This document shows, piece by piece, positions 2,880 to 53,313 of a stretch of DNA of 64,000 nt. Every line of letters begins with the position of its first letter. The stretch's first letter is position 1. Made by a program: the position numbers and the translations under genes. Source of the stretch: Capnocytophaga sp. oral taxon 878 (GTDB taxonomy: Bacteria; Bacteroidota; Bacteroidia; Flavobacteriales; Flavobacteriaceae); contig NZ_CP027229.1 in the NCBI RefSeq assembly GCF_002999135.1, positions 1,821,001 to 1,885,000 on the forward strand, read 5' to 3'. The notes under the pieces are model-generated. The model did no database searches. It was not told the origin of the DNA and saw only the letters and a list, made by a program, of their open reading frames with translations.

Positions 2880-3225
2880 GATTGGGGGATTGAAGATAAT
2901 GTAATGTTTGGGGAGTTTTGTTGAGATTTTCGCAAAAAGAGGGGTGGGAAGCAAAATGGCTGATATACAGAGATGTAAGGTGTATCCTTCGTTTACAGTT
3001 CGTTTATAGTTCGTTTATCCTTCGCTTAAAGTAGGCAAAAGATAAGAGGTAAGAGGTAGGAGGGTGAGGCAGAAAGAGGTGATTATCAGGTGGGAGATAA
3101 GTGGTAGGGGGGAAGAAAATGAGTATGGATGTTTTTGAGATATTGGCAAAGAAAATGAGAAATAGATGAGAATTTTTTATTTTAAAGGGAAAAGGTGTAG
3201 GAGGTATGGAGGTTTTGGTTATTTG
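2880..3225 (-). repeat. Long intergenic element, copy D (contains four 11-bp units at 2983-3026)
   Basis: The minus strand of this gene-free stretch matches the elements at 17890-18275, 23200-23560 and 34600-34945 over most of its length. The shared blocks, in order, are AAAAAATTCTCA, GCCAATATCTCAAAAA, CCTACCACTTATCTCCCACC, TGATAATCA, a pyrimidine-rich TTACCTCTTATCTTTT run, TACTTTAA, four 11-bp units, and AACAAAACTCCCCAAACATT. The four units lie at 2983, 2994, 3005 and 3016. The first (3016-3026, minus) is AGCGAAGGATA, a variant. The element sits between two divergent genes. Confidence 0.8.
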
Positions 3226-3245
3226 AATTAATTTTTGTAGTTTTG
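3214..3245 (+). promoter_or_regulatory. Probable promoter for the lipoprotein at 3394
   Basis: TTTG at 3214-3217, a 20-base spacer and TAGTTTTG at 3238-3245 match the group consensus. The leader would be about 140 bases. The box abuts the end of repeat copy D. Confidence 0.45.
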
Positions 3246-3393
3246 CAGGGTGGTATTAACAGATAAGGGCTGAGGTTACAAAGTAGTATTGAGTACATTA
3301 CCAAGGGAGGGTAGAAAGAGTGCGGGACGGCTATTTCGCAAATGAAGACCTTAATACATCATCAAAGTGCTAAACAATTAAAAAGTGAATGAA

Positions 3394-4197
3394 ATGAGAT
3401 TTAACATATTCTTTTTGTTATTATGTGCCTTATGGGGGGCTGTGAGCTGCTCTAAATATCCGCCTTTTGAGAAAAATAAATGCGGGGATAATGAACTGCA
3501 CGGAAGAGTGAAAACCTTAAAAGAAATAGTATATGAATACTACTACAATGAAGATGGGGAGGTAAGAAAGATTGATACATTGATTACTACTTCGCACTTT
3601 AACAAACAGGGGTTCTATACTGAAATAATTACGCCAGAAGGTAAGAAGGTGTTCACTTATCCTGAAAAAGGGGTTATACACGCATTTTACACTCCTAATG
3701 ACACTACAGAAGAGAAGGCAACACATTACATACGCTTTTACAACGAAAAGGGAGATTTGGAAAGGGTTAAAAATGGGAATACTGGTAAAGTACTAAATAC
3801 TTATGAATATAGCTACGACAGTAATGATAGAGCTACGGAAAGGGTGCGCTATGGGATTGTTGGGGCAGTGGAAAAAACTGTTTACCAATATGATCATATA
3901 GGAAATATGAAGAGTAAGAAAAATTATGAATCAAGACTTTTTAGCAGTGAAGAATGGGATTTTGATAGTGAATGGGAATATTCGTACAACGAAAACCGAC
4001 ATCCTGCTACTGAAAAACTGTATGAGGGCAAAGATACGCTTAGACATATTCTCACCCTTAGATATGAGTATACTTATGACACCCAAGACAACTACACCCA
4101 AAGAACTATTTATGCTTACTATACAAAGACAAATAAGGAACTTATCTATTCGGTAGAAAAGAGAGAAATAGAATATTATAAGGATAGTGATAAATAA
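3394..4197 (+). CDS. Putative lipoprotein with YD/RHS-like repeats
   Basis: The 267-residue protein begins MRFNIFFLLLC and has a lipobox ending AVSC at about residue 19, so it should be a lipid-anchored envelope protein. The mature part is rich in Tyr and Asp and contains degenerate YD-type repeats such as YEYSYDSNDRATE, YQYDHIGNMKS, WEYSYNENRHPATE and YEYTYDTQDNYTQR. These resemble the beta-hairpin units of RHS/YD proteins but are far too few for a toxin shell. A GTG nine bases upstream is possible, but the ATG is preferred. It is a single-gene unit between repeat element D and the next promoter. Function is unknown. Confidence 0.8.
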   Translation: MRFNIFFLLLCALWGAVSCSKYPPFEKNKCGDNELHGRVKTLKEIVYEYYYNEDGEVRKIDTLITTSHFNKQGFYTEIITPEGKKVFTYPEKGVIHAFYTPNDTTEEKATHYIRFYNEKGDLERVKNGNTGKVLNTYEYSYDSNDRATERVRYGIVGAVEKTVYQYDHIGNMKSKKNYESRLFSSEEWDFDSEWEYSYNENRHPATEKLYEGKDTLRHILTLRYEYTYDTQDNYTQRTIYAYYTKTNKELIYSVEKREIEYYKDSDK

Positions 4198-4414
4198 TTG
4201 TGGGATTATGATTACTGCTTTTTACTACTTAGATATCTGTGAGCTGACAACAAGAGTTGGGCTGGGTAGTTGGGGCATAATGAATAGCAGGAGATAACGA
4301 TATGTAGTGAATACTTATTCTGCCTGCAAAAAGAAGTTTATTTAGGCAAAAAGAAATGCAAATTATAGGAATGTGCGTGCTTTTGCATTGAAATATGATA
4401 AAAAATAGAAAATA

Positions 4415-4448
4415 TTTTTGGTACTTTCAGTTTTAAATAGTATCTTTG
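4415..4448 (+). promoter_or_regulatory. Promoter for the DUF2795-like gene
   Basis: TTTTTG ending at 4420, a 20-base spacer and TATCTTTG at 4441-4448 match the Bacteroidota consensus, 30 bases before the ATG at 4478. Confidence 0.7.
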
Positions 4449-4477
4449 CGCCCAAAATTTTAAAATTCTATTAGTTT

Positions 4478-4699
4478 ATGTATTGGACGTTAGAACTTGC
4501 CTCTTATTTGAGTGATGCTCCTTGGCCTGCTACTAAGGACGAGCTTATTGACTATGCTATCCGTACCGGTGCGCCTATGGAAGTTGTTGAGAACCTTCAA
4601 GAAATAGAGGACGAAGGTGATATGTATGAATCTATTGACGAAATCTGGCCTGATTACCCGTCGGAAGAGGATTACTTATGGAATGAAGATGAATATTAG
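4478..4699 (+). CDS. Small acidic protein, DUF2795-like
   Basis: The 73-residue protein begins MYWTLELASYL and ends in a run of Glu, Asp and Tyr (SEEDYLWNEDEY). The pattern WTLELASYLSDAPWPATKDELIDYAIRTG resembles the DUF2795 family of small soluble proteins. It has no membrane segment. It has its own promoter 30 bases upstream and a strong terminator 7 bases downstream, so it is probably expressed alone at a high level, although it sits just before secA. Its role is not known to me. Confidence 0.8.
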   Translation: MYWTLELASYLSDAPWPATKDELIDYAIRTGAPMEVVENLQEIEDEGDMYESIDEIWPDYPSEEDYLWNEDEY

Positions 4700-4705
4700 A
4701 AAATA

Positions 4706-4730
4706 AAAGTCTCTGCAATGAGACTTTTTT
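4706..4730 (+). terminator. Intrinsic terminator after the DUF2795-like gene
   Basis: An 8-base perfect stem (AAAGTCTC / GAGACTTT) with a 6-base loop runs straight into a T tract, immediately after the stop codon at 4699. It separates this gene from secA. Confidence 0.8.
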
Positions 4731-4896
4731 TAATTAGCAAAATATATCAATAGCCAAATGGATAAGAGTGACAATTTGTCAGTTATTAATAGTTTGGTAT
4801 ATTTATTGACCAAAAAGAAAAAGTAAAGATTTTTAAAAGGCTTTGCAGGAGGCTATAAAGACTTTAGCAAAGTATCATAAAATATTAAGTATTATA

Positions 4897-7800
4897 ATGA
4901 GTATTATAAATTCCCTTATTAAAATTTTTGTTGGTGATAAAGCCAAAAATGATTTAAAAGCCATTCAACCCATTGTTGAGAAAATAAAAACCCACGCAGC
5001 CCGTTTAGAAGCTATAAGCAATGATGAGCTACGAGCTAAAACTATTGAATTTAAAGAGCGTATAAAAGAAGCTCGTGCTACCTATGATGCACAAATTGCA
5101 GACCTACAAGCACAAGCTAACGCTACAGAAGATATTGATAAAAAAGAAGACCTTTATACTGAAATAGACAAACTAAGTGGTGAGGCGTATCAGGCTTCGG
5201 AAAAGATGCTGAATGAAATATTGCCTGAAGCCTTTGCTACAATGAAGGAAACAGCACGCCGCTTTGCGAACAATGCTACTATTGTAGTTACTGCTAATGA
5301 GCATGACCGTGAACTATCGGCTTTACATGATTATGTAAGCATTGAGGGAGATAATGCGATTTGGAAAAACCATTGGGATGCTGCAGGTAAAGATGTTACT
5401 TGGGATATGGTGCACTATGATGTGCAGCTAATAGGAGGTATTGCGCTACACCAAGGGAAAATTGCTGAGATGCAGACAGGGGAAGGTAAAACCCTTGTGG
5501 CTACCTTGCCTGTATACCTTAACGCCTTAACAGGAAATGGGGTGCATCTTGTAACTGTGAATGACTACTTGGCTAGACGAGATAGCGCTTGGATGGGGCC
5601 TTTATTTGAGTTTCACGGATTACGTGTGGATTGTATAGATAACCACCAACCTAACTCGGAAGCACGCCGCCGTGCTTATAATGCTGATATTACTTACGGA
5701 ACAAATAACGAATTTGGTTTTGATTACTTGCGTGATAATATGGCACATACCCCTGAAGACTTGGTACAACGTGCTCATAACTACGCTATAGTGGATGAGG
5801 TGGACTCGGTATTGATAGACGATGCTCGTACCCCTCTTATTATATCTGGTCCTACTCCTAAAGGAGAACTACACGAATTCAATGAACTAAAACCAATAGT
5901 AGACGACTTAGTAAACAAACAACGCGCTTACCTTACCAAAGTATTGGCTGATGCACGTAAACTTATAGCTGAAGGCGATACTAAAGAAGGTGGATTCCAG
6001 CTATTACGTGTGTACCGTGGTTTACCTAAAAATAAAGCACTTATTAAGTTCTTAAGTGAAGAAGGAGTTAAACAGCTTCTGCAGAAGACAGAGAACTACT
6101 ATATGCAGGATAACAATCGTGAAATGCCAAAGGTAGATGCTGAACTATACTTCGTGATTGATGAGAAGAATAACCAAATAGAACTTACTGATAAGGGGTT
6201 TGCTGATATTGCTTATGGTGGAGATAAAGATTTCTTTGTATTGCCTGATATTGGAATAGAAATCGCTAATATTGAGAACCAACATTTGCCTATAGAAGAA
6301 GAAGCTGCTCTTAAAGATAAACTATTTCAAGATTTTAGTGTGAAAAGTGAGCGCATTCACACCCTCAATCAATTGCTAAAAGCCTATACCTTATTTGAAA
6401 AAGATGTAGAGTATGTGGTGATTGATAATAAGGTGCTCATTGTTGATGAGCAAACAGGTCGTATTATGGACGGTCGACGTTATTCTGATGGTTTGCACCA
6501 AGCGATTGAAGCCAAAGAGAATGTAAAGATTGAAGCTGCTACCCAAACCTATGCGACTATTACTTTGCAAAACTACTTCCGTATGTACAGTAAACTATCG
6601 GGTATGACAGGTACTGCTATTACTGAAGCGGGTGAGTTCTGGGAAATATACAAACTAGATGTGATGGAAATTCCTACTAATCGCCCTATAGCTCGTAAAG
6701 ATCATAATGACCTTATTTATAAGACTAAACGTGAGAAATACAATGCTGTAATTGATAAGGTAGTTGAACTATCGGAAGCTGGTAGACCTGTGTTAATAGG
6801 TACGACCTCGGTAGAAGTATCGGAATTACTAAGCCGTATGCTTACAATGCGTAAAATAAAGCATAATGTACTGAATGCAAAACTACATAAAAAAGAGGCT
6901 GAAATAGTAGCTGAAGCAGGACAAGCTGGGGTAGTAACTATTGCTACTAATATGGCTGGACGTGGTACGGATATTAAACTAAGCCCTGAAGTAAAAGCAG
7001 CAGGAGGTTTGGCTATTATAGGAACTGAACGCCATGATTCACGAAGAGTAGACCGCCAGTTAAGAGGACGTTCAGGACGACAAGGAGACCCAGGAAGTTC
7101 ATTATTCTACGTATCATTGGAAGATAACCTTATGCGATTATTTGGTTCGGAACGTATAGCCCGCCTTATGGATAGCTTAGGTCATAAAGAAGGAGATGTG
7201 ATACAACACTCTATAATGACTAAACGTATTGAAACAGCTCAGAAGAAAGTTGAGGAGAATAACTTTGGTATTCGCAAACGTCTGTTGGAGTATGATGATG
7301 TAATGAATGCTCAGCGTGAAGTAATATACAAACGTAGACGTCACGCTTTGGAAGGAGAACGCCTAAAAGTAGACTTGGCAAATATGATATTTGACACTTG
7401 CGAAGTGATAGTGGAAAGCAATAAAGGTGCAAATAATTACAGAAATTTTGAATTTGAACTTATTAAATACTTTTCACTAAAAACAAATATCACAGAAACT
7501 GACTTTGGTAAATTATCGGCTAATGAGCTTACTTTTACTTTATATCGTGAAGTATTGAACCATTATCAAGCTAAAACTGAACGAAGTGCCTTATTGGCTT
7601 TCCCTGTGATTAAAGATGTATACGAAAACCCACAAAACACTTATGAGCGTATTGTAGTTCCTTTTACAGATGGTCAGAAAATGTTAAACATTGTAACAGA
7701 CCTAAAAGAAGCTTATGAAACACAAGGTAAAAAACTGATAAGTGATTTTGAGAAGAACATTACATTAGCAATTATTGACGAGGAATGGAAAACCCACCTA

Positions 7801-8259
7801 CGACAAATGGATGAGCTAAAACAATCGGTACAATTAGCGGTTCATGAACAAAAAGATCCTCTGTTAATCTATAAGTTTGAAGCTTTCCAACTTTTCAAAA
7901 CAATGATTGACAAGGTGAATAAAGATATTGTTTCATTCTTATTCAAAGCTGAATTACCTAATCAAAATGCTTCTGTCCAAGAAGCGCAAGCTCCGCAACG
8001 CACTCGTGAGCAATATCAAACTAACAAGGAAGAAACCTTGAATAGTGATGAAATGGCACAGCGCGCCCGTGAAGTAGGACAACAAGCTTCACAACGCCGT
8101 TCAGTAGTAGAGACCATAGTGCGTGAACAACCTAAAATAGGTCGTAATGATAAAGTAACTATACAAAATATTCGTACTGGTGAGCGTAAGGATATGAAAT
8201 TCAAACAAGCGCAACCCCTCCTAAGCAATGGAGAGTGGATTGTAGTACCAAATAATTAG
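4897..8259 (+). CDS. secA: Preprotein translocase ATPase SecA
   Basis: SecA drives Sec-dependent export across the inner membrane. The 1120-residue protein has the first nucleotide-binding domain with Walker [10 protein letters not shown] near residue 195 and Walker B-type [14 protein letters not shown] near residue 300. The preprotein cross-linking domain follows, then the second nucleotide domain ([26 protein letters not shown]) and the helical scaffold. The zinc-binding CxC tail of proteobacterial SecA is absent and the end is [18 protein letters not shown]. The length, including large internal insertions, fits Bacteroidota SecA. A TTG in the same frame at 4843 would add 18 residues, but the ATG giving MSIINSLIK is the better start. 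Its partner SecE is encoded at 32750. Confidence 0.97.
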
Positions 8260-8282
8260 CAAATATAGTTTATAATTATAAG

Positions 8283-8318
8283 ACTTTGCCAAAGTTTCAG
8301 GACTTTGGCAAAGTTTTT
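8283..8318 (+). terminator. Intrinsic terminator of secA
   Basis: A perfect 13-base inverted repeat (ACTTTGCCAAAGT / ACTTTGGCAAAGT) with a 6-base loop is followed by five T residues, 24 bases after the secA stop codon. Confidence 0.9.
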
Positions 8319-8406
8319 ATTTTTTATAACTTACTGATAATCAATAAACATTAAAACTTATGAAAATATTTTCTTCCTCAATAACAGGTATTTACAAATA
8401 ATGTTG

Positions 8407-8414
8407 TACCTTTG
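8407..8414 (+). promoter_or_regulatory. -7 box upstream of the DEAD-box helicase
   Basis: TACCTTTG matches TAnnTTTG and lies about 70 bases before the ATG at 8483. The -33 TTG is not obvious, so the call rests on the -7 element and its position after a terminator. Confidence 0.45.
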
Positions 8415-8482
8415 CGCCTTAATTTATTAGGTACATCACTAATTGGCAGATTAGCAAGTTACCTAATTGACACATTACATTA

Positions 8483-10234
8483 ATGAATTTATTTGAACAA
8501 TTAGGTCTTGATGAACCTATCCTCAAAGCCATCAATGATATGGGCTTTGAAACTCCTTCTGAAATCCAGCAAAAAGCCATTCCTACTCTTTTAGAAGATG
8601 GATCTGATATGGTAGCTTTAGCCCAAACGGGCACTGGAAAAACAGCCGCTTTTGGCTTCCCCCTTTTACAACTTATTGATACTGATAGCCGAGTAACACA
8701 AGGTCTTATCCTTTCGCCTACACGTGAACTATGCTTGCAAATAGCCTCTGAGTTACGCAACTATGCAAAGTACCTTCCTAAAGTGAATGTAGTTGCTGTA
8801 TATGGTGGTGCAAGTATTGAAGAACAAGCACGTAGCCTAAAAAAAGGAGCTCAAATTATTGTAGCTACACCAGGGCGTATGCAAGATATGATACGTAGAG
8901 AGTTTGTAGATATTACAAACATTAACTATTGTGTGCTTGATGAAGCTGACGAAATGCTGAATATGGGTTTCTATGAAGATATTACAGCTATCCTATCACA
9001 TACCCCTCAAGAAAAAAGTACTTGGCTCTTCTCGGCTACTATGCCTAATGAAGTAGCTAAAATTGCTCGTAGGTTTATGCGTAAACCTATTGAAATTACA
9101 GTAGGTACACGCAACCAAGCTACAAGCACTGTACAACACGAGTACTATGTGGTAAGCGGTCGTCATAGATATCAAGCATTAAAACGACTTGCAGATGCTA
9201 ACCCAGACATCTTCTCTGTAGTATTTTGCCGCACTAAACGTGATACACAGGCTGTAGCTGAAAAACTGATTGAAGATGGCTATAATGCTGCTGCCCTTCA
9301 CGGTGACCTTAGTCAGAACCAACGTGACTTAGTGATGAAATCATTCCGTGCACGCCAAATACAAATGCTAATTGCTACTGATGTAGCTGCACGTGGTATA
9401 GATGTAGATGATATCACTCACGTAATTCATTACCAACTTCCTGATGAGATAGAAACCTATAACCACCGTAGTGGACGTACAGGACGTGCAGGTAAATCGG
9501 GGATTTCGATGGTTATTTTACCTAAAAGTGAGGTAAAGAAAATTAAAACTATCGAGAAAATGATTGGGCAACCTTTTGAACAGAAACAATTGCCTTCGGG
9601 TATGGAAATCTGTGAGATACAGCTTTATCATTTGGCTAACAACCTTAAAAATGTAGAAGTAAACCCTGCTATAGATGATTATCTGCCTGCTATCTACAAA
9701 GAACTAAAAGACTTAGATAGAGAAGAACTCATCAAAAAAATATTCTCGGTAGAATTTACTCGTTTCTTCAATTATTACAAAAATGCTGAAAACTTATCGG
9801 TAGAAGAGGAAAAAAGTTCTCACAGCGGTAGTAGCGCTGATGAGGTGCGCTATTTTATAAATATAGGAGAACGTGACGGATATGACTGGAAAACCCTTAA
9901 AGACTTCCTAAAAGCGACTCTTAATTTAGGACGTGATGATGTTTTCAAAGTAGATGTTAAAAACAGTTTTTCTTTCTTCAATACTGATGCTGAACTTACT
10001 GACTTAGTAATGGAGACCTTCAACGACTTCAAACTAGATGGACGCTTCATTAATGTAGAACTTTCTAGCAAAGGAGCTGGAAGAGAGCGTAGCGGACGCA
10101 AACAAAACAGCGATAGCAGAAAACGCAATGGTGATGAAAGTAGAAATAGGAAGAAAGGCCAGCGTGAAAGTCGTAAACAAAAAACTGCTGATGCCCTACA
10201 ACAAGCCTTTAAGAAAAAGAAAAAACGCAAATAA
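8483..10234 (+). CDS. deaD: DEAD-box ATP-dependent RNA helicase (DeaD/CsdA type)
   Basis: The 583-residue protein is a full DEAD-box helicase that unwinds RNA duplexes in ribosome assembly and cold adaptation (family knowledge). The Q motif is near residues 20-30 (GFETPSEIQ). Motif I is AQTGTGKT at 47-54. Other visible motifs are PTRELCLQ, LDEADEML near 152, FSATMP near 184, AARGIDV and HRSGRTGRAG. A DbpA-type RNA-binding domain (VRYFINIGERDGYDWK through FINVELSSKG) occupies about residues 455-535. The tail is a very basic low-complexity extension of Lys, Arg, Ser and Asn. The next gene starts 3 bases after the stop codon, so it probably leads a three-gene operon with the PAP2 phosphatase and the DUF2851 protein. 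Confidence 0.95.
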   Translation: MNLFEQLGLDEPILKAINDMGFETPSEIQQKAIPTLLEDGSDMVALAQTGTGKTAAFGFPLLQLIDTDSRVTQGLILSPTRELCLQIASELRNYAKYLPKVNVVAVYGGASIEEQARSLKKGAQIIVATPGRMQDMIRREFVDITNINYCVLDEADEMLNMGFYEDITAILSHTPQEKSTWLFSATMPNEVAKIARRFMRKPIEITVGTRNQATSTVQHEYYVVSGRHRYQALKRLADANPDIFSVVFCRTKRDTQAVAEKLIEDGYNAAALHGDLSQNQRDLVMKSFRARQIQMLIATDVAARGIDVDDITHVIHYQLPDEIETYNHRSGRTGRAGKSGISMVILPKSEVKKIKTIEKMIGQPFEQKQLPSGMEICEIQLYHLANNLKNVEVNPAIDDYLPAIYKELKDLDREELIKKIFSVEFTRFFNYYKNAENLSVEEEKSSHSGSSADEVRYFINIGERDGYDWKTLKDFLKATLNLGRDDVFKVDVKNSFSFFNTDAELTDLVMETFNDFKLDGRFINVELSSKGAGRERSGRKQNSDSRKRNGDESRNRKKGQRESRKQKTADALQQAFKKKKKRK

Positions 10235-10237
10235 AGA

Positions 10238-10819: not shown

Positions 10820-10843
10820 TCTTCTTGTTTTTCGTTAAAAACT

Positions 10844-12112: not shown

Positions 12113-12344
12113 ATCTTTTTCTTCCCAATATGCCAAAGAACAAAGTAATTTTCTAGAACTTTTACTGTGCAAAATTGGTATGATTGGGTTTGTTATACAA
12201 ATAGTTGTAGCAGCACGGAACAGTTTTGTAAAGTTTAAAATAGCTAATAGGGTTGATTACAAGGATTTTGATACTAGCTTGCTAACTGTGATTCTTCTTA
12301 CTAACTATGGTTCGCGAGATACCCGGTTGCGCCAGCGAGATGAC

Positions 12345-12388
12345 TATCCTTCGTTTATACTTCGTTTATCCTTCGTTTATCGTTCGTT
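12345..12388 (-). repeat. 44-bp element of four 11-bp units, short copy E
   Basis: On the minus strand the units are AACGAACGATA, AACGAAGGATA, AACGAAGTATA and AACGAAGGATA, followed by GTCATCTC. The gap 12113-12484 between two convergent genes (DUF2851 and the ATPase) holds this element and nothing else I can support. The open frame across it is an artefact of the repeat, which reads YPSF.LRLSFV on this side. Confidence 0.85.
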
Positions 12389-12484
12389 CAGGGAGTATCT
12401 ATCTTTCTGGAAATCTGGAGGTTACTTATATTTATCTTCTTAAATATCTGTAAAATAGATGTTTATATTTTGAGGTGAAGGGAG

Positions 12485-17889: not shown

Positions 17890-18275
17890 GATATGGCGTT
17901 TTCTTCTCATCAAACCATAACCACAAAACCTCTAAAAACACCCCCTCTCTTAACATTAAAAAATTCTCACTTATTTTCCTTTTTCCTTGCCAATATCTCA
18001 AAAATATCCATCCTCACTCTCCACCCCCCTACCACTTATCTCCCACCTGATAATCACCTCTTTCTGCCCCACCCTTTTACCCCTTACCTCTTATCTTTTA
18101 CCTACTTTAAACGAACCTATAACGAAGGATAAACGAACTATAAACGAAGGATAAAAGTCACTCCTTTGGTTTTCAGTCACTTCATCTCCCCTATCCTTCT
18201 TTGCCAAATTCGCAACAAAACTCCCCAAACATTGCATTTTCCTCAATCCCCTAAAAACAAGAAAAGCCAATGCAC
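17890..18275 (+). repeat. Long intergenic element, copy A (11-bp units at 18110-18153)
   Basis: It lies between the SLBB gene promoter and the ABC permease gene. Blocks in order are AAAAAATTCTCAC (about 17947), GCCAATATCTCAAAAA (about 17989), CCTACCACTTATCTCCCACC, TGATAATCA, a pyrimidine run, TACTTTAA, four 11-bp units (AACGAACCTAT, AACGAAGGATA, AACGAACTATA, AACGAAGGATA), then TTTGCCAAATTCGCAACAAA, ACTCCCCAAACATTGCATTT and CCTCAATCCCC. It is the closest relative of copy D at 2880-3225. No convincing gene lies in the 520-base gap. Confidence 0.85.
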
Positions 18276-23199: not shown

Positions 23200-23560
23200 T
23201 CTTACTTAAAAAACCTTTCTAAAAAAGAAAAAACCACCTCAATCCACACCTTCTCCCTCCCTACCTCTTACCTCCTACCCAAATTGCGAATTCTTCAAAA
23301 ATTCCTTCCCCCCACTCTCTTTCCTCCTACCTCTTATCTCTTACCTGATAATCAGCCCTTTCCACCCCACTCTCTTACCTCTTCACTCTTATCTCTTACC
23401 TACTTTAAACGAACCTATAACGAAGGATAAACGAACTATAAACGAAGTATAAACATAAAAACACTGATTATCAACCATTTCAATCCTAACTACCCTCTTT
23501 GCCAAATTCACAACAAAACTCCCAAAAAACTGCATTTTTCTCAATTAATCTCCACTTTAT
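23200..23560 (+). repeat. Long intergenic element, copy B (11-bp units at 23408-23451)
   Basis: Located between divergent genes (adaptor and nuclease). It has the same core as copy A: units AACGAACCTAT, AACGAAGGATA, AACGAACTATA and AACGAAGTATA. It is preceded by CTTATCTCTTACCTACTTTA and ACCTGATAATCA, and followed by ACTGATTATCAACC and TTTGCCAAATTCACAACAAA. TGATAATCA and TGATTATCA form an inverted pair around the core. The upstream half is more diverged than in copies A and D. Confidence 0.8.
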
Positions 23561-34599: not shown

Positions 34600-34945
34600 C
34601 CCAAAAGTCCCATCTCCTCTACCTCACCCAAAATTAAAAAATTCTCACCTTTTTCTCATTTTTGTTACCAATCTTTCAATTTTTTCTCATCCCCCACCCT
34701 CACTTCTTATCTCTTGGATCTTATTTGATAATCAACCCATTACACTTCCATCCACCCCCCAACCACCTTATAACTATAGCTTAGGAAGAACGAACCTATA
34801 ACGAAGGATAAACGAACTATAAACGAAGGATACACCTCACTCCACTGATTATCAACCGCTTCACCTCCCCTCCCCCTCTTTGCCAAATTCGCAACAAAAC
34901 TCCCCAATCACCACATTTTTCTCATCTCTCCCATCTCCCTCAGCT
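34600..34945 (+). repeat. Long intergenic element, copy C (11-bp units at 34789-34832)
   Basis: It contains AAAAATTCTCACCTTTTTCT, ACTTCTTATCTCTTGGATCT, TTTGATAATCAACCC, then units AACGAACCTAT, AACGAAGGATA, AACGAACTATA and AACGAAGGATA, then CACTGATTATCAACC and TTTGCCAAATTCGCAACAAA followed by ACTCCCCAA. It lies between the LRR gene promoter and the 3' end of the LOG gene. The inverted pair TGATAATCA / TGATTATCA is intact here. Confidence 0.82.
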
Positions 34946-37807: not shown

Positions 37808-37823
37808 TCTTTCTAATTTTCGG

Positions 37824-37853
37824 CAAAGGTACAAATAATTAGCAAATTAACAA
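37824..37853 (-). promoter_or_regulatory. Promoter of the beta-barrel/VWA gene pair
   Basis: The minus strand reads TTTG, 19 bases, TACCTTTG, 17 bases before the ATG at 37807. Confidence 0.75.
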
Positions 37854-37954
37854 ATGTACCAATTACCATATTTAAGTCAAACACACACCACCTTTCTCTC
37901 TCCTCAGCACAATAATCCATCCTTACACTCTCAGCCAACCCTAAGTTAAGACCG

Positions 37955-37998
37955 AACGAACGAATAACGAAGGATAAACGAACTATAAACGAAGGATA
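37955..37998 (+). repeat. 44-bp element of four 11-bp units, short copy F
   Basis: Units AACGAACGAAT, AACGAAGGATA, AACGAACTATA and AACGAAGGATA, preceded by GACCG and followed by GTCAGC. The gap between the beta-barrel promoter and the next gene holds only this element. The long-element flanking blocks are missing. A minus-strand open frame across it reads YPSFIVRLSFVIRSF and is an artefact. Confidence 0.85.
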
Positions 37999-38076
37999 GT
38001 CAGCAAGCCACCGCAGCTGAGTATCTCCCAAAGAATAAAACTAATCACCTGCTGCCACAACCCAAAAAATGCTTTT

Positions 38077-44519: not shown

Positions 44520-44552
44520 AAAGGGACTTCCTTTATTTTCGGAAGTCCCTTT
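44520..44552 (-). terminator. Terminator of the grpE-dnaJ operon
   Basis: A 12-base stem (AAAGGGACTTCC / GGAAGTCCCTTT) with a 9-base loop lies about 20 bases past the dnaJ stop, followed on the minus strand by a T-rich run. Confidence 0.85.
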
Positions 44553-44570
44553 TCCATTTTAAAAAATAAC

Positions 44571-45692: not shown

Positions 45693-45701
45693 TGCTCCTC
45701 C

Positions 45702-46250: not shown

Positions 46251-46342
46251 AATGATTCTTTTTAAAATTTACTTGTTAGGATATAGCAAATTATTTGCCA
46301 AACCCGCAAAGAATGACAAATTGGCAGTTATTTAAAGCTAAT

Positions 46343-46393
46343 ACGGATTACACAGATATTACGGATTTATTCCGTACTGTCCGTGCAATCCGT
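46343..46393. repeat. Imperfect hairpin repeat (ACGGATTACAC type)
   Basis: Outer arms ACGGATTACAC and GTGCAATCCGT pair with one mismatch. Inner arms TACGGA and TCCGTA pair perfectly. It lies between the fabH stop and the grpE start. ACGGATTACACAGAT-type sequences occur as dispersed repeats in several genomes; here it may also terminate fabH transcription, although the T tract is poor. Confidence 0.55.
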
Positions 46394-46417
46394 GTGAGAT
46401 AGCTGCCTGCTGTGAGG

Positions 46418-47428
46418 CTACCAACGGATGATAGCACTTGCCCAGGTAAAGCCACTACCAAAGGCTGCGAGCACTACGAGGTCGCCTTCTTTAATTTTGC
46501 CTTGTTGTACGGCTTCGGTAAGGGCGATAGGTACCGATGCAGCGGTTGTATTACCGTATTTCATTATGTTATTGAATACTTGCTCATCGGTGAGTTTGAA
46601 TTGGTGCTGTATGAATTGTGATATACGCAGGTTGGCTTGGTGAGGCACAAGCATATTGATATCGGCACGTGTGAGTCCGTTAGCTTTCAAGCCTTCTTCT
46701 ATCACTTCGGAGAAGCGTACTACTGCGTTTTTGAACACGAACTGACCATTCATATAAGGATAATAGCTTACATCATCGGGGTTGTTTTCGGCTAGTATTT
46801 CGGGTACCCATTTGGTGCCTACTCCTGGGGTAATCATTGCCAACTCGGCAGCGTGCTCTCCTTGGCTGTGTAGGTGGGTAGAGAGGATACCTTTTTGGGC
46901 ATCATCGGAGCGTGATACAACGGCAGCTCCTGCTCCGTCGCCAAATAGTACTGCCATATTGCGCCCACGGGTAGTCATATCTAAGGCTGGGGATTGGGTT
47001 TCGGACCCTATAACTAAGACATTTTTGTACATACCTGTTTTGATGTACTGATCGGCTACTGAAAGGGCATAGATGAAGCCTGAACACTGGTTGCGGATAT
47101 CCAATGCTCCGACATTGGGCAGCCCTAATTCCTTCTGTACCAATACACCGCAACCTGGGAAATAGTAATCGGGGCTTAATGTTGCAAATACAATAAAGTC
47201 TATTTCTTCTTTATTGATTTGGGCTGCTTCGATAGCTTTTAAACTTGCTTTGACACCCATTGAGGTAGTAGTTTCAGTACCTTTAAGGGCATGGCGGCGT
47301 TCTTTAATACCTGTGCGCTCTTGTATCCAAGCATCGTTGGTATCCATTAATTTCGACAAATCGTCGTTGGTAACAATATTATCGGGAACGTAAAATCCGA
47401 GTCCCTTAATTTTTGAACGATATAACAT
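46418..47428 (-). CDS. fabH: 3-oxoacyl-[acyl-carrier-protein] synthase III
   Basis: The 336-residue condensing enzyme starts fatty-acid synthesis by joining acetyl-CoA and malonyl-ACP. The catalytic triad is visible: Cys115 in NQCSGFIYAL, His in LVPHQANLRI near 260 and Asn in KYGNTTAASVP near 290. FGDGAGAAVV and the end GSGFTWASAIIRW are typical. It is a single gene, not next to plsX or rpmF as in many bacteria. Paralogues in Bacteroidota make other ketosynthase III products, so a role in branched-chain or secondary lipids is possible. Confidence 0.94.
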   Translation of the reverse strand: MLYRSKIKGLGFYVPDNIVTNDDLSKLMDTNDAWIQERTGIKERRHALKGTETTTSMGVKASLKAIEAAQINKEEIDFIVFATLSPDYYFPGCGVLVQKELGLPNVGALDIRNQCSGFIYALSVADQYIKTGMYKNVLVIGSETQSPALDMTTRGRNMAVLFGDGAGAAVVSRSDDAQKGILSTHLHSQGEHAAELAMITPGVGTKWVPEILAENNPDDVSYYPYMNGQFVFKNAVVRFSEVIEEGLKANGLTRADINMLVPHQANLRISQFIQHQFKLTDEQVFNNIMKYGNTTAASVPIALTEAVQQGKIKEGDLVVLAAFGSGFTWASAIIRW

Positions 47429-47537
47429 ATTTTTAGTTTTAGTATTCTTAAGTGTAGGGGCAAAAAAGAGGTGCTGAATAATTGTTTAGATTTTTGCCTA
47501 TTTTTTGCGATATACCGAGCTATAAGAGCTGGCTTAC

Positions 47538-47581
47538 TATCCTTCGTTTATAGTTCGTTTATCCTTCGTTCATCCTTCGTT
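47538..47581 (-). repeat. 44-bp element of four 11-bp units, short copy G
   Basis: On the minus strand the units are AACGAAGGATG, AACGAAGGATA, AACGAACTATA and AACGAAGGATA, followed by GTAAGC. It lies between the fabH start and the manA stop. Unlike most copies it faces a gene's 3' end. Confidence 0.85.
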
Positions 47582-47668
47582 CAATAAGAAAGATGCCTTT
47601 GACAGATTTTTTATCTGTTTGGGGTATGGAGGTAATTTTGTTGTATTTGGAGAGTATTGGTAATAGGA

Positions 47669-48631
47669 TTATATGTATACTTCTAACAAATCCATTCCTT
47701 TGGTTTTTACTTCTAATTTGGGGCAAGCAGCAGGGAATAAGATTGTTTCACCTTGCTTGATAGGAAGCTCGGTAATACCATCGGAAAGGAAGCCTTCACC
47801 TTTTACGCACATATAAATATGGAAAGAATCATCTTGTGCTAATGATTTTTCATATCCTGCTGTAAGAGGGAGCAAATTTGTAATAAAATAGGGGCAATTC
47901 ACGACTTTATTCACCTGATTGGGCTCTTGGGTGTATTGCACTTTGAAATCATCCTTGCGCTCATAATCAATGGCTTCAAGAGCAAGCTCGGTGTGTAGTT
48001 CGCGTAGGTTACCATTTTTATCGCGGCGGTCAAAATCATAAACACGATAGGTAATATCACTAGTTTGCTGAATTTCGGCAATAATAATACCCTTACCTAT
48101 GGCGTGTACTTTACCTGTATTAATAAAAAATGTATCACCATTGTGTACCTTTTCATAGTTAAGAATATCGGTAAGAGTACCGTTATTGAGGTGTTGTTGG
48201 TATTCATTTTTAGTAACTGTCTTGTTAAAACCTACTATGAGTTCAGCTCCTTCATCGGCATGGAGTACATACCACATTTCAGTCTTACCAAAGGAGTTAT
48301 GACGTTCCTTGGCTAGCTTATCATTAGGGTGTACTTGGATTGATAGGTCTTCACGGGCATCAATAAATTTGATAAGTATAGGGAAATCATTACCAAAACG
48401 CTGGTGCACATGCTTACCAAGTAACTCATTAGGATACAAGTTAATAAGCTCTTGAAGACTTTTGCCTTCTAAGGCTCCATTAGCTACCACCGATATATCA
48501 CCAGGTACTCCTGATACTTCCCAGCTTTCACCTGTGATATCGGTTACAATGGGTTTGTTAAACAAAGTTTTAAGTTTTGTACCTCCCCAAATTCTCTCTT
48601 TTAGGATAGGTTTAAATTTTATTGGATACAT
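47669..48631 (-). CDS. manA: Mannose-6-phosphate isomerase, class I
   Basis: The 320-residue cupin enzyme interconverts fructose-6-phosphate and mannose-6-phosphate, feeding GDP-mannose and glycan synthesis. Zinc ligands are in LSIQVHPND near residue 93, EMWYVL near 118 and HAIGKGIIIAEIQQTSD near 175. YRVYDFDR and a short C-terminal cupin half follow. Length fits the short Bacteroidota/Firmicutes class. It lies 14 bases downstream of the exonuclease III gene and is the last of a four-gene minus-strand run. Confidence 0.95.
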   Translation of the reverse strand: MYPIKFKPILKERIWGGTKLKTLFNKPIVTDITGESWEVSGVPGDISVVANGALEGKSLQELINLYPNELLGKHVHQRFGNDFPILIKFIDAREDLSIQVHPNDKLAKERHNSFGKTEMWYVLHADEGAELIVGFNKTVTKNEYQQHLNNGTLTDILNYEKVHNGDTFFINTGKVHAIGKGIIIAEIQQTSDITYRVYDFDRRDKNGNLRELHTELALEAIDYERKDDFKVQYTQEPNQVNKVVNCPYFITNLLPLTAGYEKSLAQDDSFHIYMCVKGEGFLSDGITELPIKQGETILFPAACPKLEVKTKGMDLLEVYI

Positions 48632-48645
48632 TTTATTACACTTGT

Positions 48646-49407
48646 TTAATTAATTTCTAAAAGAATAGGGCAATGATCACTATGCTTAGCTTCGGGCAGT
48701 ATGAGAGCTCGCTCCATACGGCTTTCCAAAGGTGAAGCTACTAAGTGATAATCAATACGCCAACCTTTATTATTATTACGGGCATTAGCTCTATAACTCC
48801 ACCATGAGTATTGATGAGGCTCTTTATGAAAATAACGGAAACTATCAATAAAGCCACTTTTCATAAAGGTATCTAACCACTCACGTTCCACTGGCAAAAA
48901 GCCTGATACATTGGCATTGCGCACAGGATCATGAATATCAATAGCTTGGTGACAAATATTGTAATCACCACAAATAATGAGGTTTGGAATAGTTTGTTTC
49001 AGTTCATTAATGTATTTCTGAAAATCGGCCATAAAGGTTAGCTTAAAGTCTAAGCGGTCGATATTGGTTCCCGATGGCAGATACAAACTCATTACCGAAA
49101 GGGTATCAAAATCAGCTCGTATTACCCGGCCTTCTTTGTCCATATAGTCTATACCTGTACCTATCTCAACATGTTTAGGAGCTATTTTAGAGATAATAGC
49201 TACCCCACTATAACCTTTTTTCTCGGCACTATGGTAATACTGGTATTCATAGCCCAATTCGGCAAATATTTCTGTAGGTATCTGAGCTTCTAAGGCTTTT
49301 ATCTCTTGCAAGCACAACACATCAGGAGCTGCTGCTTGTAACCACTCTTTTAATCCCTTGGTAAAGGCAGCTCTAATTCCGTTCACATTATAACTAATAA
49401 TTTTCAT
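48646..49407 (-). CDS. xth: Exodeoxyribonuclease III / AP endonuclease (XthA type)
   Basis: The 253-residue protein has all EEP-nuclease motifs: ISYNVNGIRAA, LCLQEIKA with the metal-binding Glu, YSGVAIISK, LYLPSGTN, CGDYNICHQAID, WWSYRANARNNNKGWRIDYHL and the catalytic SDHCPI. It cuts DNA at abasic sites during base-excision repair. Its start shares one base with the deoC stop codon at 49407, so translation is coupled. Confidence 0.96.
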   Translation of the reverse strand: MKIISYNVNGIRAAFTKGLKEWLQAAAPDVLCLQEIKALEAQIPTEIFAELGYEYQYYHSAEKKGYSGVAIISKIAPKHVEIGTGIDYMDKEGRVIRADFDTLSVMSLYLPSGTNIDRLDFKLTFMADFQKYINELKQTIPNLIICGDYNICHQAIDIHDPVRNANVSGFLPVEREWLDTFMKSGFIDSFRYFHKEPHQYSWWSYRANARNNNKGWRIDYHLVASPLESRMERALILPEAKHSDHCPILLEIN

Positions 49408-50069
49408 TAGTAGCCTGTTCCTTTCTCTCCTTTCAAGATAGTAATACCATTGGAAGTCCCTATACGCTGCACTCCTAAATTTATATATTGTATAGCTGTT
49501 TCATAATCACGTACCCCACCCGATGCTTTTATCTTAGCGTGTCCTTGCACGCTTTCTTTCATCAGTTTTACATCTGGAAGGGTAGCCCCTCCAGTACCAA
49601 AGCCCGTAGAGGTTTTTACAAAATCTGCTTTTGCATCAAGGGCCAATTGGCAAGCCAAGCGCTTCTCTTCATCTGTAAGGTAGCAAGTTTCTATTATTAC
49701 TTTAAGCACACGGTTACTACCCACAGCAGCTTTTAAGGCTGCAATCTCCTCACGCACTTTATCTATTTCGCCTGATTTTAGCCAACCTACATTAATTACC
49801 ATATCAATCTCATCTGCTCCATCTGCTAATGCTTGTTCTGTTTCAAAAAGTTTAGCTTTGGATTGCATAGCTCCTAAAGGGAATCCCACTACACTGCATA
49901 CTTTAACAGTAGTTCCTTCTAAGAATTTTTTAGCAGTAGCCACATACGCGCTATTCACGCATACCGAATAAAAATCATACTCCACAGCCTCTTTGCAAAG
50001 AGTTTCTATCTCGGCAATGGTAGCTGTTGCTTTTAATAGTGTGTGGTCAATAAGTTTATTTAATTTCAT
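49407..50069 (-). CDS. deoC: Deoxyribose-phosphate aldolase
   Basis: The 220-residue TIM-barrel enzyme splits 2-deoxyribose-5-phosphate into acetaldehyde and glyceraldehyde-3-phosphate. Landmarks are MKLNKLIDHTLLKA, VCSVVGFPLGAM, EIDMVINVGWLKSGE, LKVIIETCYLT, the Schiff-base lysine in DFVKTSTGFGTGGA and IKASGGVRD. The ATG at 50069 gives the normal length; a start 14 codons upstream overlaps the neighbouring gene. It sits between the zinc-ribbon gene and xth, which suggests a DNA-salvage or repair theme. Confidence 0.96.
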   Translation of the reverse strand: MKLNKLIDHTLLKATATIAEIETLCKEAVEYDFYSVCVNSAYVATAKKFLEGTTVKVCSVVGFPLGAMQSKAKLFETEQALADGADEIDMVINVGWLKSGEIDKVREEIAALKAAVGSNRVLKVIIETCYLTDEEKRLACQLALDAKADFVKTSTGFGTGGATLPDVKLMKESVQGHAKIKASGGVRDYETAIQYINLGVQRIGTSNGITILKGEKGTGY

Positions 50070-50092
50070 ATTTTGTTTGTTTTTGGTATTGT

Positions 50093-50731
50093 TTAAATAT
50101 TCTTTTCCCATTGCTGTAAGGTTTTCAGCACAATATCTCTATGCTTCTTAATCTTGATAAAAGTAGGCAATTTAGCTACTAAGCTCATTCCTTTACGCTC
50201 TCGCAAATCCGATGCCACATAATCTGCCATTACCTTTATATGCTCAGGGTTCAAAGCCCAAAAAAGATTGCCTTTTATATTGGTTTGAAAATAGTAAGGT
50301 AACCCAAAAATACGGTCTCGTTTAAGCCCTCCTTGTTGCTTAGAGTAATAATCAGGATTATATTGTAACTGATAACTTGGCTTAACTTTAAGAGTATGCT
50401 TACATTTAGGATTGGTACAATTCACTGCCATCTCCTCCAATTTATGCTTCACATTAATTATTTCTTTAAAGATAGGCAAACCACAATTAGGACAGTTTAG
50501 CTTAATAGTCGCTACAAATGATTTCTTAGCTCTGCTAAGTTGTTCAAAACCACAATGGCTACATCTCACTACTACAGTCTCAAAATGATAAGGAGTCTCT
50601 CTATTCACATCCTCCTCTGTAGGGTAATGTTTTTTAGTAGTAACTTTAGCCCCTTTCCCACATTTAGGGCACACCACCCATTTATCGTTAACATACACAT
50701 CAAAAAAGTACCTATCTTCAAATCGCTTCAT
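50093..50731 (-). CDS. Zinc-ribbon protein of unknown function
   Basis: The 212-residue protein begins MKRFEDRYFFDVYVNDKWVVCPKCG. Four Cys pairs follow: CPKCG near 21, CSHCG near 59, CPNCG near 82 and CTNPKC near 105, so two zinc ribbons are likely. The C-terminal half is Lys- and Tyr-rich, with GLPYYFQTNIKGNLFWALN. No enzyme motif is seen. It is the first gene of the run with deoC (23 bases downstream), xth and manA. Nucleic-acid binding is plausible but not shown. Confidence 0.78.
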   Translation of the reverse strand: MKRFEDRYFFDVYVNDKWVVCPKCGKGAKVTTKKHYPTEEDVNRETPYHFETVVVRCSHCGFEQLSRAKKSFVATIKLNCPNCGLPIFKEIINVKHKLEEMAVNCTNPKCKHTLKVKPSYQLQYNPDYYSKQQGGLKRDRIFGLPYYFQTNIKGNLFWALNPEHIKVMADYVASDLRERKGMSLVAKLPTFIKIKKHRDIVLKTLQQWEKNI

Positions 50732-50977
50732 ATTATGCATTCTTTATTGTCAATTACTTTCATCTCTAAGTTAGTCAAAACTCAGAACTATATAAGTAAA
50801 ATTCTTTTATTAACATAGGACTGAAGTAGATACTTTTTCCCTATATCTTCCATCACATACTCAGCCATTATAGCCTGGTTATTATCCCTCAATTACCATA
50901 CCAGATAAATAGTTTTTCTCATATCATTACCAAGATATATTTATTGAGTACTGCATACGCACCCTATCTACGGCTTA

Positions 50978-53119
50978 TTAACGTTTAATCTTCATTTCAT
51001 CTATCAGATAGCCTGCTCCTGCATATTTATCAATAATGAATAGCACATACCTAATATCCACCATAATATTCCTACATATCTTAGGATCATAATGTATATC
51101 ACTCATAGTCCCTTCCCATACTCGGTCAAAATTCAGCCCTATAAGGTTACCTTGTGCATCAATAGCAGGACTACCCGAGTTACCTCCTGTTGTATGATTA
51201 GTCGCTACAAAGCACACTGGCATCTTGCCATTCTTACCATAAATACCATAATCTTTCTTCTCATACAAAGCACGTAGTTTAGCAGGCACATCAAATTCGT
51301 AATCACCCGGCACATATTTCTCCATTACACCATCCAAATAAGTAATATAATCATAAGTTACTGCATCCTTAGGTGCATATCCCGCTACTTTTCCATAAGT
51401 CACACGCAAGGTACTGTTAGCATCAGGGAAGATGCGATCTTCTGGTTTCGCAAACTCCAAGATAGCCTTCATATAACTGCGCTGCAATGCCGTAATCTCT
51501 TCATTTAGTTCAGCAAAGGTAGGATATACTTTTTCGTAGAAATGATTTATAATACCTTGTACTAATTCCACCCCTACATCTCCTTTTAATCGTTGCTGGA
51601 AAGCCTTAGCATCTAAGTTCAATACCTTTTCCATCTCAGCTCCCGAAGCCAAAAACGATTCTCCGTATAACTTATCAGCCATAGCCTTCACATCTATGTT
51701 CTGCATATTAGGAGCCAACAGCTCTTTAGGCATCGTCTTTATATAATAAGCCGCTGCTGCCTCAAATACAGCCTTATCCACCTTTAAGTCATAATCCTTA
51801 AATACTCCCCGAAACATCGTTACATAAGCCTTCTTCCTATCGTTAAATGACTGTTCCCCTCTCTCAAGCAATGCATTTTGCAGCTGTAACACCCTTAATC
51901 CGTTTGATAGCAAAGCTACATTACGCTGCACAAACTCCGAGTACAAATCTACCGAAAGCTCATAATCCCTTATAGCAGCATATTTTTTAGCAAAATCATC
52001 CAAAATATTCCCATATTCCGCACTCTTTCCTGCCTTTGCAATAGCCTTCTGGAACTTCTCTTCTTGCGCGCGTTTCAGCGCCACTGCGCCCGATTGTTCC
52101 AAGCCCTGTGTCTCTCCTATCCATTTCTTCCAATAGTTAGCCACACTAGCATATTTTGAAGCATATTTAATCTTAATCCCATTATCAACTCTCATAAAGC
52201 CATCCTGCACTTTCAGTACCACATCACGAATCCCTATCTTGGCAGGGTTCAGCACCTTCACTATTTGCTCCACAGCTACGGAAGGCAGATACTCCTGCGT
52301 CCTTCCAGGATACCCAAATACCATAGTGAAATCACCTGCCTTCACCCCTTTTAGTGAGATCGGGAAAAAATGCTTAGGTACATAAGGCACATTGTCTTTG
52401 GAATACTCCGCAGGCCTATTATTCTTATCAGCATATACCCTGAATAACGAAAAATCTCCCGTATGTCTCGGCCACACCCAGTTATCCGTGTCCGACCCAA
52501 ATTTCCCTATCGATGAAGGCGGAGCCCCCACCAATCGCACATCCTTAAATGTCTCAACCACAAATAATATATACTGGTTCCCCTCATAAAACGCCCGAAT
52601 ACGATTCTCCTGCCACGACTCCTTAGCCGAGTTCTTTACCAAGTTCGCTATATTCTTCTCTATCTTCGATGCCCTATCCATCTCACTACTCAATCCCTTA
52701 GTATCTTCAAGCACCTTAGCCGTAACATCCTCTATACGCACTATAAAAGTAACCTCCAAATTCTTATTAGGAAGCTCCTCCGATAAGCTCTTAGCCCAAA
52801 AACCATTCGTAAGATAATCATTCTCTAAGGTCGAATGAGCCTGTATCTGCCCATACCCACAATGGTGATTAGTAAGAAGCAGCCCCCTGCCCGAAATCAC
52901 TTCAGCAGTACACCCCCCATTAAAATGAGGCACCGCATCCTTCAAGCTCGATTTATTCACATTATAAATATCGCTTACCGACATCTTCATCCCAAGCGAC
53001 TTCATCTCCTTAGCATTCATACCCTCCAACAACGACGGGATCCACATCCCTCCCTGCTGTGCCAATAAGCTAAAAGGCAACAAAAAACAACCTACAAGTA
53101 ATAAAATAAATTTCTTCAT
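50978..53119 (-). CDS. S46 family dipeptidyl-peptidase, DPP11 type
   Basis: The 713-residue protein has a signal peptide (FILLLVGCFLLPFSLLAQ) and the S46 fold. The catalytic His is in LLTNHHCGYG at 85-86, the Asp lies between the halves, and Ser648 is in TGGNSGSPA. The residue 18 positions after the Ser is Arg666 (GLNFDRVWEG). In Porphyromonas enzymes Arg at this spot marks DPP11, which cuts after Asp or Glu, while Gly marks DPP7. Such periplasmic enzymes supply dipeptides to peptide-fermenting oral Bacteroidota. It is a single gene. The 235-base gap downstream shows no feature I can support. Confidence 0.93.
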   Translation of the reverse strand: MKKFILLLVGCFLLPFSLLAQQGGMWIPSLLEGMNAKEMKSLGMKMSVSDIYNVNKSSLKDAVPHFNGGCTAEVISGRGLLLTNHHCGYGQIQAHSTLENDYLTNGFWAKSLSEELPNKNLEVTFIVRIEDVTAKVLEDTKGLSSEMDRASKIEKNIANLVKNSAKESWQENRIRAFYEGNQYILFVVETFKDVRLVGAPPSSIGKFGSDTDNWVWPRHTGDFSLFRVYADKNNRPAEYSKDNVPYVPKHFFPISLKGVKAGDFTMVFGYPGRTQEYLPSVAVEQIVKVLNPAKIGIRDVVLKVQDGFMRVDNGIKIKYASKYASVANYWKKWIGETQGLEQSGAVALKRAQEEKFQKAIAKAGKSAEYGNILDDFAKKYAAIRDYELSVDLYSEFVQRNVALLSNGLRVLQLQNALLERGEQSFNDRKKAYVTMFRGVFKDYDLKVDKAVFEAAAAYYIKTMPKELLAPNMQNIDVKAMADKLYGESFLASGAEMEKVLNLDAKAFQQRLKGDVGVELVQGIINHFYEKVYPTFAELNEEITALQRSYMKAILEFAKPEDRIFPDANSTLRVTYGKVAGYAPKDAVTYDYITYLDGVMEKYVPGDYEFDVPAKLRALYEKKDYGIYGKNGKMPVCFVATNHTTGGNSGSPAIDAQGNLIGLNFDRVWEGTMSDIHYDPKICRNIMVDIRYVLFIIDKYAGAGYLIDEMKIKR

Positions 53120-53269
53120 ATTACAGTCAAAAAAGTATAAGTATAATTAATTTTTCAGACGGCAAAGGTAACTAAACTTTTTCTAATAACCAAAAAATAC
53201 TTATCACCCACCCCCATACCACCACCTCCCAACCATATCTCTCCCACATCAAAATCACCCCCTACCCCG

Positions 53270-53313
53270 AACGAACGAATAACGAAGGATAAACGAACTA
53301 TAAACGAAGGATA
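53270..53313 (+). repeat. 44-bp element of four 11-bp units, short copy H
   Basis: Units AACGAACGAAT, AACGAAGGATA, AACGAACTATA and AACGAAGGATA, preceded by CTACCCCG and followed by GTTGCC. It lies between the divergent DPP11 and YtxH genes, with pyrimidine-rich sequence (CTCTTACCTCTTACC) after it. It is identical in all four units to copy F. Confidence 0.85.

Follow-up and report, generated by a model that had tools for sequence, protein, structure and literature searches.

Intergenic arrays of 11-bp units within dispersed repeats of Capnocytophaga sp. oral taxon 878: candidate protein-binding sites beside promoters

The genome of Capnocytophaga sp. oral taxon 878 (GCF_002999135.1) appears to carry about 220 intergenic arrays, mostly of four tandem 11-bp units, that form the core of longer dispersed repeats and whose AACGAA/TTCGTT letters stay constant while the spacers between them and the DNA around them drift. 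We studied them in a 64,000-nucleotide stretch (hereafter the window; NZ_CP027229.1, positions 1,821,001-1,885,000), which sits on a 2.96-Mb contig of a 2.99-Mb genome, and in an own-genome sample of 40 evenly spaced stretches of 20 kb (800 kb). Our preferred reading, to which we give a probability of roughly 0.45, is that mobile repeats carry a DNA array that would be bound by a protein making one AACGAA/TTCGTT contact per 11 bp.

A preliminary description of the window had reported eight such arrays. All eight were found again at the same coordinates and on the same strands, each 44 bp long (4 x 11), and Tandem Repeats Finder also detects every one of them. The repeats that hold them fall into two main classes, A and B, told apart by unit 1 and by their flanks:

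2983-3026, minus strand: four 11-bp units with class A flanks and unit 1 AGCGAAGGATA; the left-flank profile match begins at 2886
12345-12388, minus strand: four 11-bp units, class-B-like, followed by GT and a degenerate 39-bp unit; the sole convergent array among the 63 with gene context
18110-18153, plus strand: four 11-bp units, class A by array reading and flank profile
23408-23451, plus strand: four 11-bp units, class A by array reading and flank profile, between divergent genes in an earlier gene call
34789-34832, plus strand: four 11-bp units, class A by array reading and flank profile
37955-37998, plus strand: four 11-bp units, class B by array reading and flank
47538-47581, minus strand: four 11-bp units, class-B-like, with the TTCGTT strand antisense to both neighbouring genes (gene context and congener alignment)
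53270-53313, plus strand: four 11-bp units, class B; neighbouring genes divergent by the earlier gene call

Three AACGAA-N5 units in a row occurred in none of 100 Markov shuffles of the window, and over the whole genome this pattern matched 451 times, while its reversed form, used as a control, did not match once. Allowing up to 3 mismatches, a 28-mer spanning units 2-4 found 258 matches in the genome (some arrays being counted twice) and none when reversed. The many copies anticipated in the preliminary description are thus present, the figure of about 220 being scaled from the 800-kb sample. An exact 33-mer had no match in a one-genome-per-species contig collection, in which the own genome is possibly not included. 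The claim of a four-unit count for every array is right for 58 of 68 (60 in the sample and eight in the window) and fails for the other ten, which have three, five or six. Of the 60 sample arrays with at least three units, 50 have four, six have five, two have three and two have six, in a count that tolerated one mismatch per core, so that some longer arrays end in a degenerate unit; two extra two-unit rows in the sample proved to be shifted readings of arrays already counted. Position-specific unit variants are indeed common to dispersed copies (unit 4 at 23408 is AACGAAGTATA, and shifted variants occur at 2983), and C or G stands at unit position 7, which the search pattern left free, in 274 of the 280 own units. 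The suggestion that TAA shuts all three frames is correct at 2983, 12345 and 47538, while five of the eight copies keep one array-strand frame open over the 44 bp.

Our analysis of core constancy applies to class A copies. These are repeats of about 270 bp in which unit 1 is mostly AACGAACCTAT, and a common flank extends about 100 bp on one side of the array and about 165 bp on the other. We searched the sample and the window with flank profiles trained on 13 array-bearing copies, the search itself being made without array letters. The 29 left and 30 right matches marked 30 distinct places, and an array was present at 30 of 30. When the 29 left-match copies were aligned, identity was 0.93 over the first 33 bases of the array, counted on the TTCGTT strand, 0.64 in one flank and 0.54 in the other, with a sharp change at both array edges. 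In the TTCGTT core of three units (18 positions in 29 copies), none of 522 letters departs from the consensus, against about 73 expected from the nearest-neighbour flank distance (median 0.30) halved for terminal branches, an expectation that alignment noise inflates somewhat. Non-consensus letters elsewhere in class A number 7 of 168 in the core of the remaining unit, 70 of 575 in the spacers and 2039 of 6844 in the flanks. Gene conversion could hardly have kept the cores yet freed the spacers, because the two alternate every 5-6 bp. Selection on the core is the simplest reading of this constancy and, since the core letters are fixed while the surrounding DNA drifts, something in the cell probably reads the array; the step from there to a host function is one that we infer. 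Constant cores separated by varying spacers are compatible with one protein contact per 11 bp, as had been proposed earlier from the period of the repeat, and if the arrays are not bound, the constancy of their cores still needs another cause.

The position of the arrays relative to genes is far from even. Gene context comes from a caller with 87% coverage of the sample and the window (and 85% of the congener genome G010, used below), except for the divergent context of the arrays at 23408 and 53270, which rests on the earlier gene call (77% coverage of the own sample). As the preliminary description had it, the arrays are intergenic: none of the 68 lies within a called gene, and the one at 12345-12388 overlaps only an 87-aa open reading frame (12180-12443) that the caller rejected. 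Both neighbours fall inside the stretch for 63 of the 68, the remaining five being excluded as they lie at stretch ends. Of these 63, 33 are in divergent gaps, 24 lie between same-direction genes with TTCGTT sense to the downstream gene, five lie between such genes in the opposite orientation and one is convergent. The strand preference between same-direction genes (24 vs 5) is significant (p = 0.0005), and overall the TTCGTT strand points to a gene start in 57 of 63 cases, although in the 33 divergent gaps either strand would. Altogether, arrays occupy 63 of the 246 gaps of at least 100 bp, and they do so unequally: 33/51 where the genes diverge, 29/177 where they run in the same direction and 1/18 where they converge, so that the divergent share is 33/63 among array gaps and 18/183 among array-free gaps. 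Replication strand was considered as a cause of the strand bias and dropped, because orientation switches within 20-kb stretches.

Promoters of Bacteroidota carry the motif TTG-N17-24-TAnnTTTG. The full motif was found between array and gene, on the TTCGTT strand, for 44 of the 63 arrays (all with enough flank), against 1/63 on the opposite strand and 5/63 on the same strand upstream of the array; shuffles gave about 6. Upstream on the opposite strand, where promoters of divergent genes are placed, it was present in 24/63. The window offers an example:

37822-37855, minus strand: Bacteroidota-type promoter (TTG..TAnnTTTG) between array and gene, recurring in most congeners searched

This promoter forms part of an extended word of about 33 bp, TTAATTTGCTAATTATTTGTACCTTTGCC (minus strand, 37822-37855), longer than the usual -33/-7 boxes, which occurs at high identity in G001, G007, G009-G013, G015 and G018 (G001 is Capnocytophaga bilenii and G009 C. 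leadbetteri; the own genome is G000 and the other G numbers are congeners).

The preliminary description treated the array as an element in itself. Its 44-bp rows of units are real, yet they sit within longer dispersed repeats that had been missed. The class A consensus, read on the TTCGTT strand, has 21-nt imperfect inverted arms (TTTTGTTGCGAATTTTGCAAA), one starting at about -67 and the other ending at about +173 of the array start, which match at 17 of 21 positions, as good a match being found in 0 of 1000 shuffles. Mean arm complementarity is 0.66 in 28 copies, against 0.16-0.33 with slid arms. The arms are imperfect, lie on one side about 30 bp inside the common flank and, when the four window copies are read one by one, show in one of them (34789). 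Within these outer arms, an inner inverted pair, TGATAATCA/TGATTATCA, flanks the array at 23408 and 34789. The class A features of the window are:

2886-3190, plus strand: class A repeat around 2983, approximate; from the flank profile, high end estimated as for 18110
17945-18252, minus strand: class A repeat around 18110, approximate; ends estimated from pairwise matches
23243-23546, minus strand: class A repeat around 23408, approximate; from the flank profile, low end estimated as for 18110
23346-23355 and 23464-23473, within the preceding repeat: inverted pair at the 23408 array, TGATAATCAG and CTGATTATCA, from an inverted repeat search
34624-34929, minus strand: class A repeat around 34789, approximate; from the flank profile, low end estimated as for 18110
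34660-34679, no strand assigned: inverted-repeat arm (20 nt, 75%) bracketing the 34789 array; the same arms are in the class A consensus
34880-34899, no strand assigned: partner arm of the 34789 inverted repeat, likewise in the class A consensus

Class B is built differently. Its unit 1 is mostly AACGAACGAAT, and the array is followed by GT and a 39-bp hairpin unit, of which the copies read have one to three. The flank on the other side is mostly private (a 12-mer is common to 15 of 496 pairs, against 75 of 465 in class A) and keeps an odd composition, with C at 0.06 and G at 0.38 on the TTCGTT strand. Read on the array strand, the flanks of both classes (both sides in class A, one side in class B) have C at 0.30-0.36 and G at 0.05-0.06. 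The G-over-C skew reaches 0.21 in the 95 array-bearing upstream regions and 0.11 in the 184 regions without arrays. Copies of the 39-bp unit in the window are:

37999-38037, plus strand: class B hairpin unit, degenerate; folds better than 197 of 200 shuffles
12306-12344, minus strand: class B unit, degenerate; 199 of 200 shuffles fold better than array and unit together
47499-47537, minus strand: class B unit, degenerate; from the class B flank reading

Comparison with congeners suggests that the repeats have spread. One case is at 47538, where aligned blocks that stand 229 bp apart in the window are separated by 9 (G010), 18 (G018), 22 (G008) and 28 bp (G001); the spacing is 85 bp in G009 and 719 bp, with other DNA there, in G011:

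47441-47669, no strand assigned: stretch of about 229 bp holding the 47538 array; the same aligned blocks are 9-28 bp apart in four congeners

At this one empty site, the flanks are too diverged to reveal a target-site duplication. At E 0.01 the class A flank profiles, which give 25 and 26 matches in the 800-kb own sample, give none in the congener DNA searched (780 kb for G010, 180 kb for G018 and smaller amounts for G011, G008, G001 and G019). Because the 47538 insertion is missing in congeners and array sites are not clearly common with the sister species G010, we conclude that the repeat spreads. Gene pairs that flank an array are seldom adjacent in congener stretches (2 syntenic pairs with an array and 92 without), so that insertion length is not measurable in this way. 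Since such pairs are seldom syntenic, an array may be the sign of a rearrangement point or of the end of an operon.

Related arrays exist in the genus, and they vary both in sequence and in length. A three-unit AACGAA match was found in 8 of 20 genus genomes and in none of the other 12, and a search at the level of the family gave matches in 2 of 199 genomes, G000 and G010. At the same pitch, and with other spacers, the units are AACGAASTCAG in G008, AACGAASAATG in G010 and AGCGAAGGATR in C. bilenii and C. leadbetteri. It is here that the notion of a fixed unit count breaks down, as RACGAA arrays of G010 have 3-23 units and the arrays read in C. bilenii and C. leadbetteri have 3-6. Several of the latter are followed by a homologous 39-bp unit, whose outer stem is CGGC/GCCG instead of the CAGC/GCTG of the own genome, a change that is compensatory by eye. 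G010 also has a dispersed element of TATAAGC type, TTCGTATAAGCTTCCTATAAGCTCTCTATAAGCT, with 128 matches at up to 3 mismatches; it too is an 11-bp repeat with position-specific variants and longer common flanks (G010 stretches L128-L132, L139-L152 and L159-L178), and outside G010 it has three matches, all of them in G008, with no match in 18 further genomes. These three (G008:C1 738407, 2464519 and 2475465) are exact copies of the 34-bp G010 element, perhaps through recent DNA exchange. Separately, G010 carries variable-number 11-bp minisatellites of unrelated sequence, such as CTACAGTGGST.

A looser four-unit pattern was searched across all species. The best 80 of 118 stretches include 55 Bacteroidota titles, six of them Capnocytophaga, and 22 of the 83 arrays among the matches listed lie inside a frame that stays open for 150 bp on each side; in the viral set, the same is true of 58 of 80 arrays in the best 80 of 91 stretches. 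This pattern can serve as a lead only, because coding repeats match it as well and because at least 118 stretches match, of which 80 are listed. Several contigs of the uncultured Bacteroidales RUG737 (L256, L282, L304, L309, L310 and L318) hold 11-bp arrays of ATCGAAGAACN, with inverted pairs in two.

How might these observations fit together? Non-autonomous dispersed repeats would have brought the arrays, as their core, to their present places. There, a host protein, or a row of its copies, is predicted to contact the AACGAA/TTCGTT core once per 11 bp, so that four units, rarely three to six, would be bound head to tail. Binding on the promoter side could then have a mild general effect and not control one regulon; architecture, insulation between divergent promoters and global modulation are all candidate effects. 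A protein contacting one core per turn would explain why cores are frozen between drifting spacers, which a spreading repeat of the miniature inverted-repeat transposable element (MITE) kind does not explain by itself. Several results weigh against this proposal. We compared 109 gene pairs that are reciprocal best matches between the own genome and G010. In 37 of them the upstream gap reaches 100 bp in either genome alike, and among these G010 has an array at 6 of 16 gaps that bear one in the own genome and at 6 of 21 that do not (p = 0.73); without the gap limit, the numbers are 6/20 and 11/89 (p = 0.08), and the margins of both comparisons are shifted because 14 G010 stretches were picked around arrays. 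Strand bias is slight in G010 (9 vs 6 for the TATAAGC element and 9 vs 7 for RACGAA arrays). Distances from array to promoter show no helical phasing (Rayleigh p 0.34-0.89), hence no fixed orientation of the array towards RNA polymerase is required. No functional theme emerged from 30 of the 58 downstream genes, mostly longer ones scanned in order, 25 of which have a Pfam family (dnaN, ftsK, lepA, mreB, peptidases and transporters among them); with this and the lack of a clear ortholog association, the idea of a conserved regulon is weakened. Finally, the MITE-like inverted repeats of class A mean that selection at the level of the element may explain part of the constancy.

The last point leads to a purely selfish MITE-like repeat, in which the array would be a cis sequence for the repeat's own copying and its promoter-side placement and strand bias would reflect the least harmful insertions. 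We regard this account as doubtful, yet a serious possibility: the insertion at 47538, the restriction of class A flank profiles to the own genome in the stretches searched, the sites not clearly common with G010, the downstream genes without a theme and the inverted arms around the array all speak for it. Its main difficulty is that the cores are constant even on terminal branches, which element-level selection alone would not predict, as under maintenance by its own copying machinery these branches should have decayed. The imperfection, inset position and patchy presence of the arms also fit it poorly. In a search confined to this transposase type, PF01797 (Y1/RAYT) was absent from the own genome and present in 5 of the 14 genomes used as controls, so that a REP/RAYT assignment was dropped; there was no match to one class A stretch in plasmids or to one class B stretch in phages. 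Neutral minisatellite drift would account for the varying unit number of sister species and for little else; the constancy of the cores contradicts it, dispersed copies have position-specific variants in common and 58 of 68 have four units, and we give it almost no credence.

Two further readings assign the array to known kinds of site. At the RNA level, a transcribed array could be the target of an RNA-binding protein. Alternatively, its strand rich in C and poor in G could load Rho, which would account for that strand being mostly antisense to genes. The composition of the array-strand flanks, the stronger skew of array-bearing upstream regions and the folding of one class B copy (37999) agree with this. 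We consider it unlikely all the same, as the promoter stands between array and gene in 44/63 cases and the transcript from it excludes the array, neither strand of class A outdoes its shuffles in folding, nearly all shuffles of the class B copy at 12345 fold better than the copy itself and no Rfam family was matched in the window at gathering score. The other reading is a site for a response regulator of the OmpR/PhoB family. Boxes of this kind (PhoB, PhoP and PmrA) are direct repeats with a 6-7 bp core and an 11-bp pitch, and the arrays, in which cores of 6 bp and spacers of 5 bp make head-to-tail units every 11 bp, resemble them. This is a likeness of geometry: the arrays are far more numerous, lack a theme in the genes scanned and are carried on dispersed repeats, and about 220 sites at functionally mixed genes exceed a usual OmpR/PhoB regulon. 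Moreover, counts of PF00486 do not track the arrays (2 in the own genome, 1-2 in G001, G008-G011 and G018, and 2-3 in the other 13 genomes), and we hold it very unlikely that the arrays are such sites. Returning to a protein-bound array carried by mobile repeats, we can extend it to a Bacteroidota DNA-reading system in which CGAA cores are read once per turn at sites moved by small non-autonomous repeats and kept beside promoters, the 11-bp pitch being inherited while species differ in their spacers, in the number of units and even in the entire unit (TATAAGC in G010). This generalisation is speculative, and we hold it to be rather improbable.

Among the top-ranked matches of the literature searched, no such array is described in Capnocytophaga, in agreement with the preliminary description, which knew of no matching family. 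The closest known kind is BrickBuilt, a MITE with a minisatellite core in Porphyromonas gingivalis, for which the source reports 19 elements with a 23-bp unit in 1 to 22.8 copies and a 12-bp terminal inverted repeat, perfect in one, and raises a role as mobile promoter (PMC4596501). The two are alike in being dispersed and always intergenic in Bacteroidota, with a tandem-repeat core, differing leader and tail and perhaps imperfect inverted ends (PMC4596501); here, however, the unit is of 11 bp, mostly four in a row, in about 220 copies, and the imperfect arms, seen in class A, are subterminal. The STAR elements of Staphylococcus are 14-bp repeats at least 40 bp apart, argued to be under purifying selection; they too are dispersed intergenic direct repeats, abundant in only some species of the genus, but of unrelated sequence and not head to tail at one helical turn (PMC3532100). 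TAACTGA heptamer repeats of Beggiatoaceae form 169 intergenic sets of perfect 7-bp units near start codons with a proposed post-transcriptional role; these are likewise intergenic short direct repeats without a functional theme (PMC4679880), whereas in Capnocytophaga the array usually precedes the promoter. Should the arrays be bound, a mobile repeat has in one lineage placed some 220 nearly identical binding sites next to unrelated promoters, and sister species build the same geometry from other letters. This would bear on the origin of wide DNA-binding networks from dispersed repeats, and on which protein organises promoter-upstream DNA in these Bacteroidota.

The window holds two other repeats. 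One is an array like clustered regularly interspaced short palindromic repeats (CRISPR), with a tandem period of about 76, beside a 1332-aa Cas9 (TIGR01865), the two lying at 57308-58581 and 59954-63952. The other, at 55501-55530, is a perfect 8-bp tandem repeat, TAATTTGC, in 3.8 copies.

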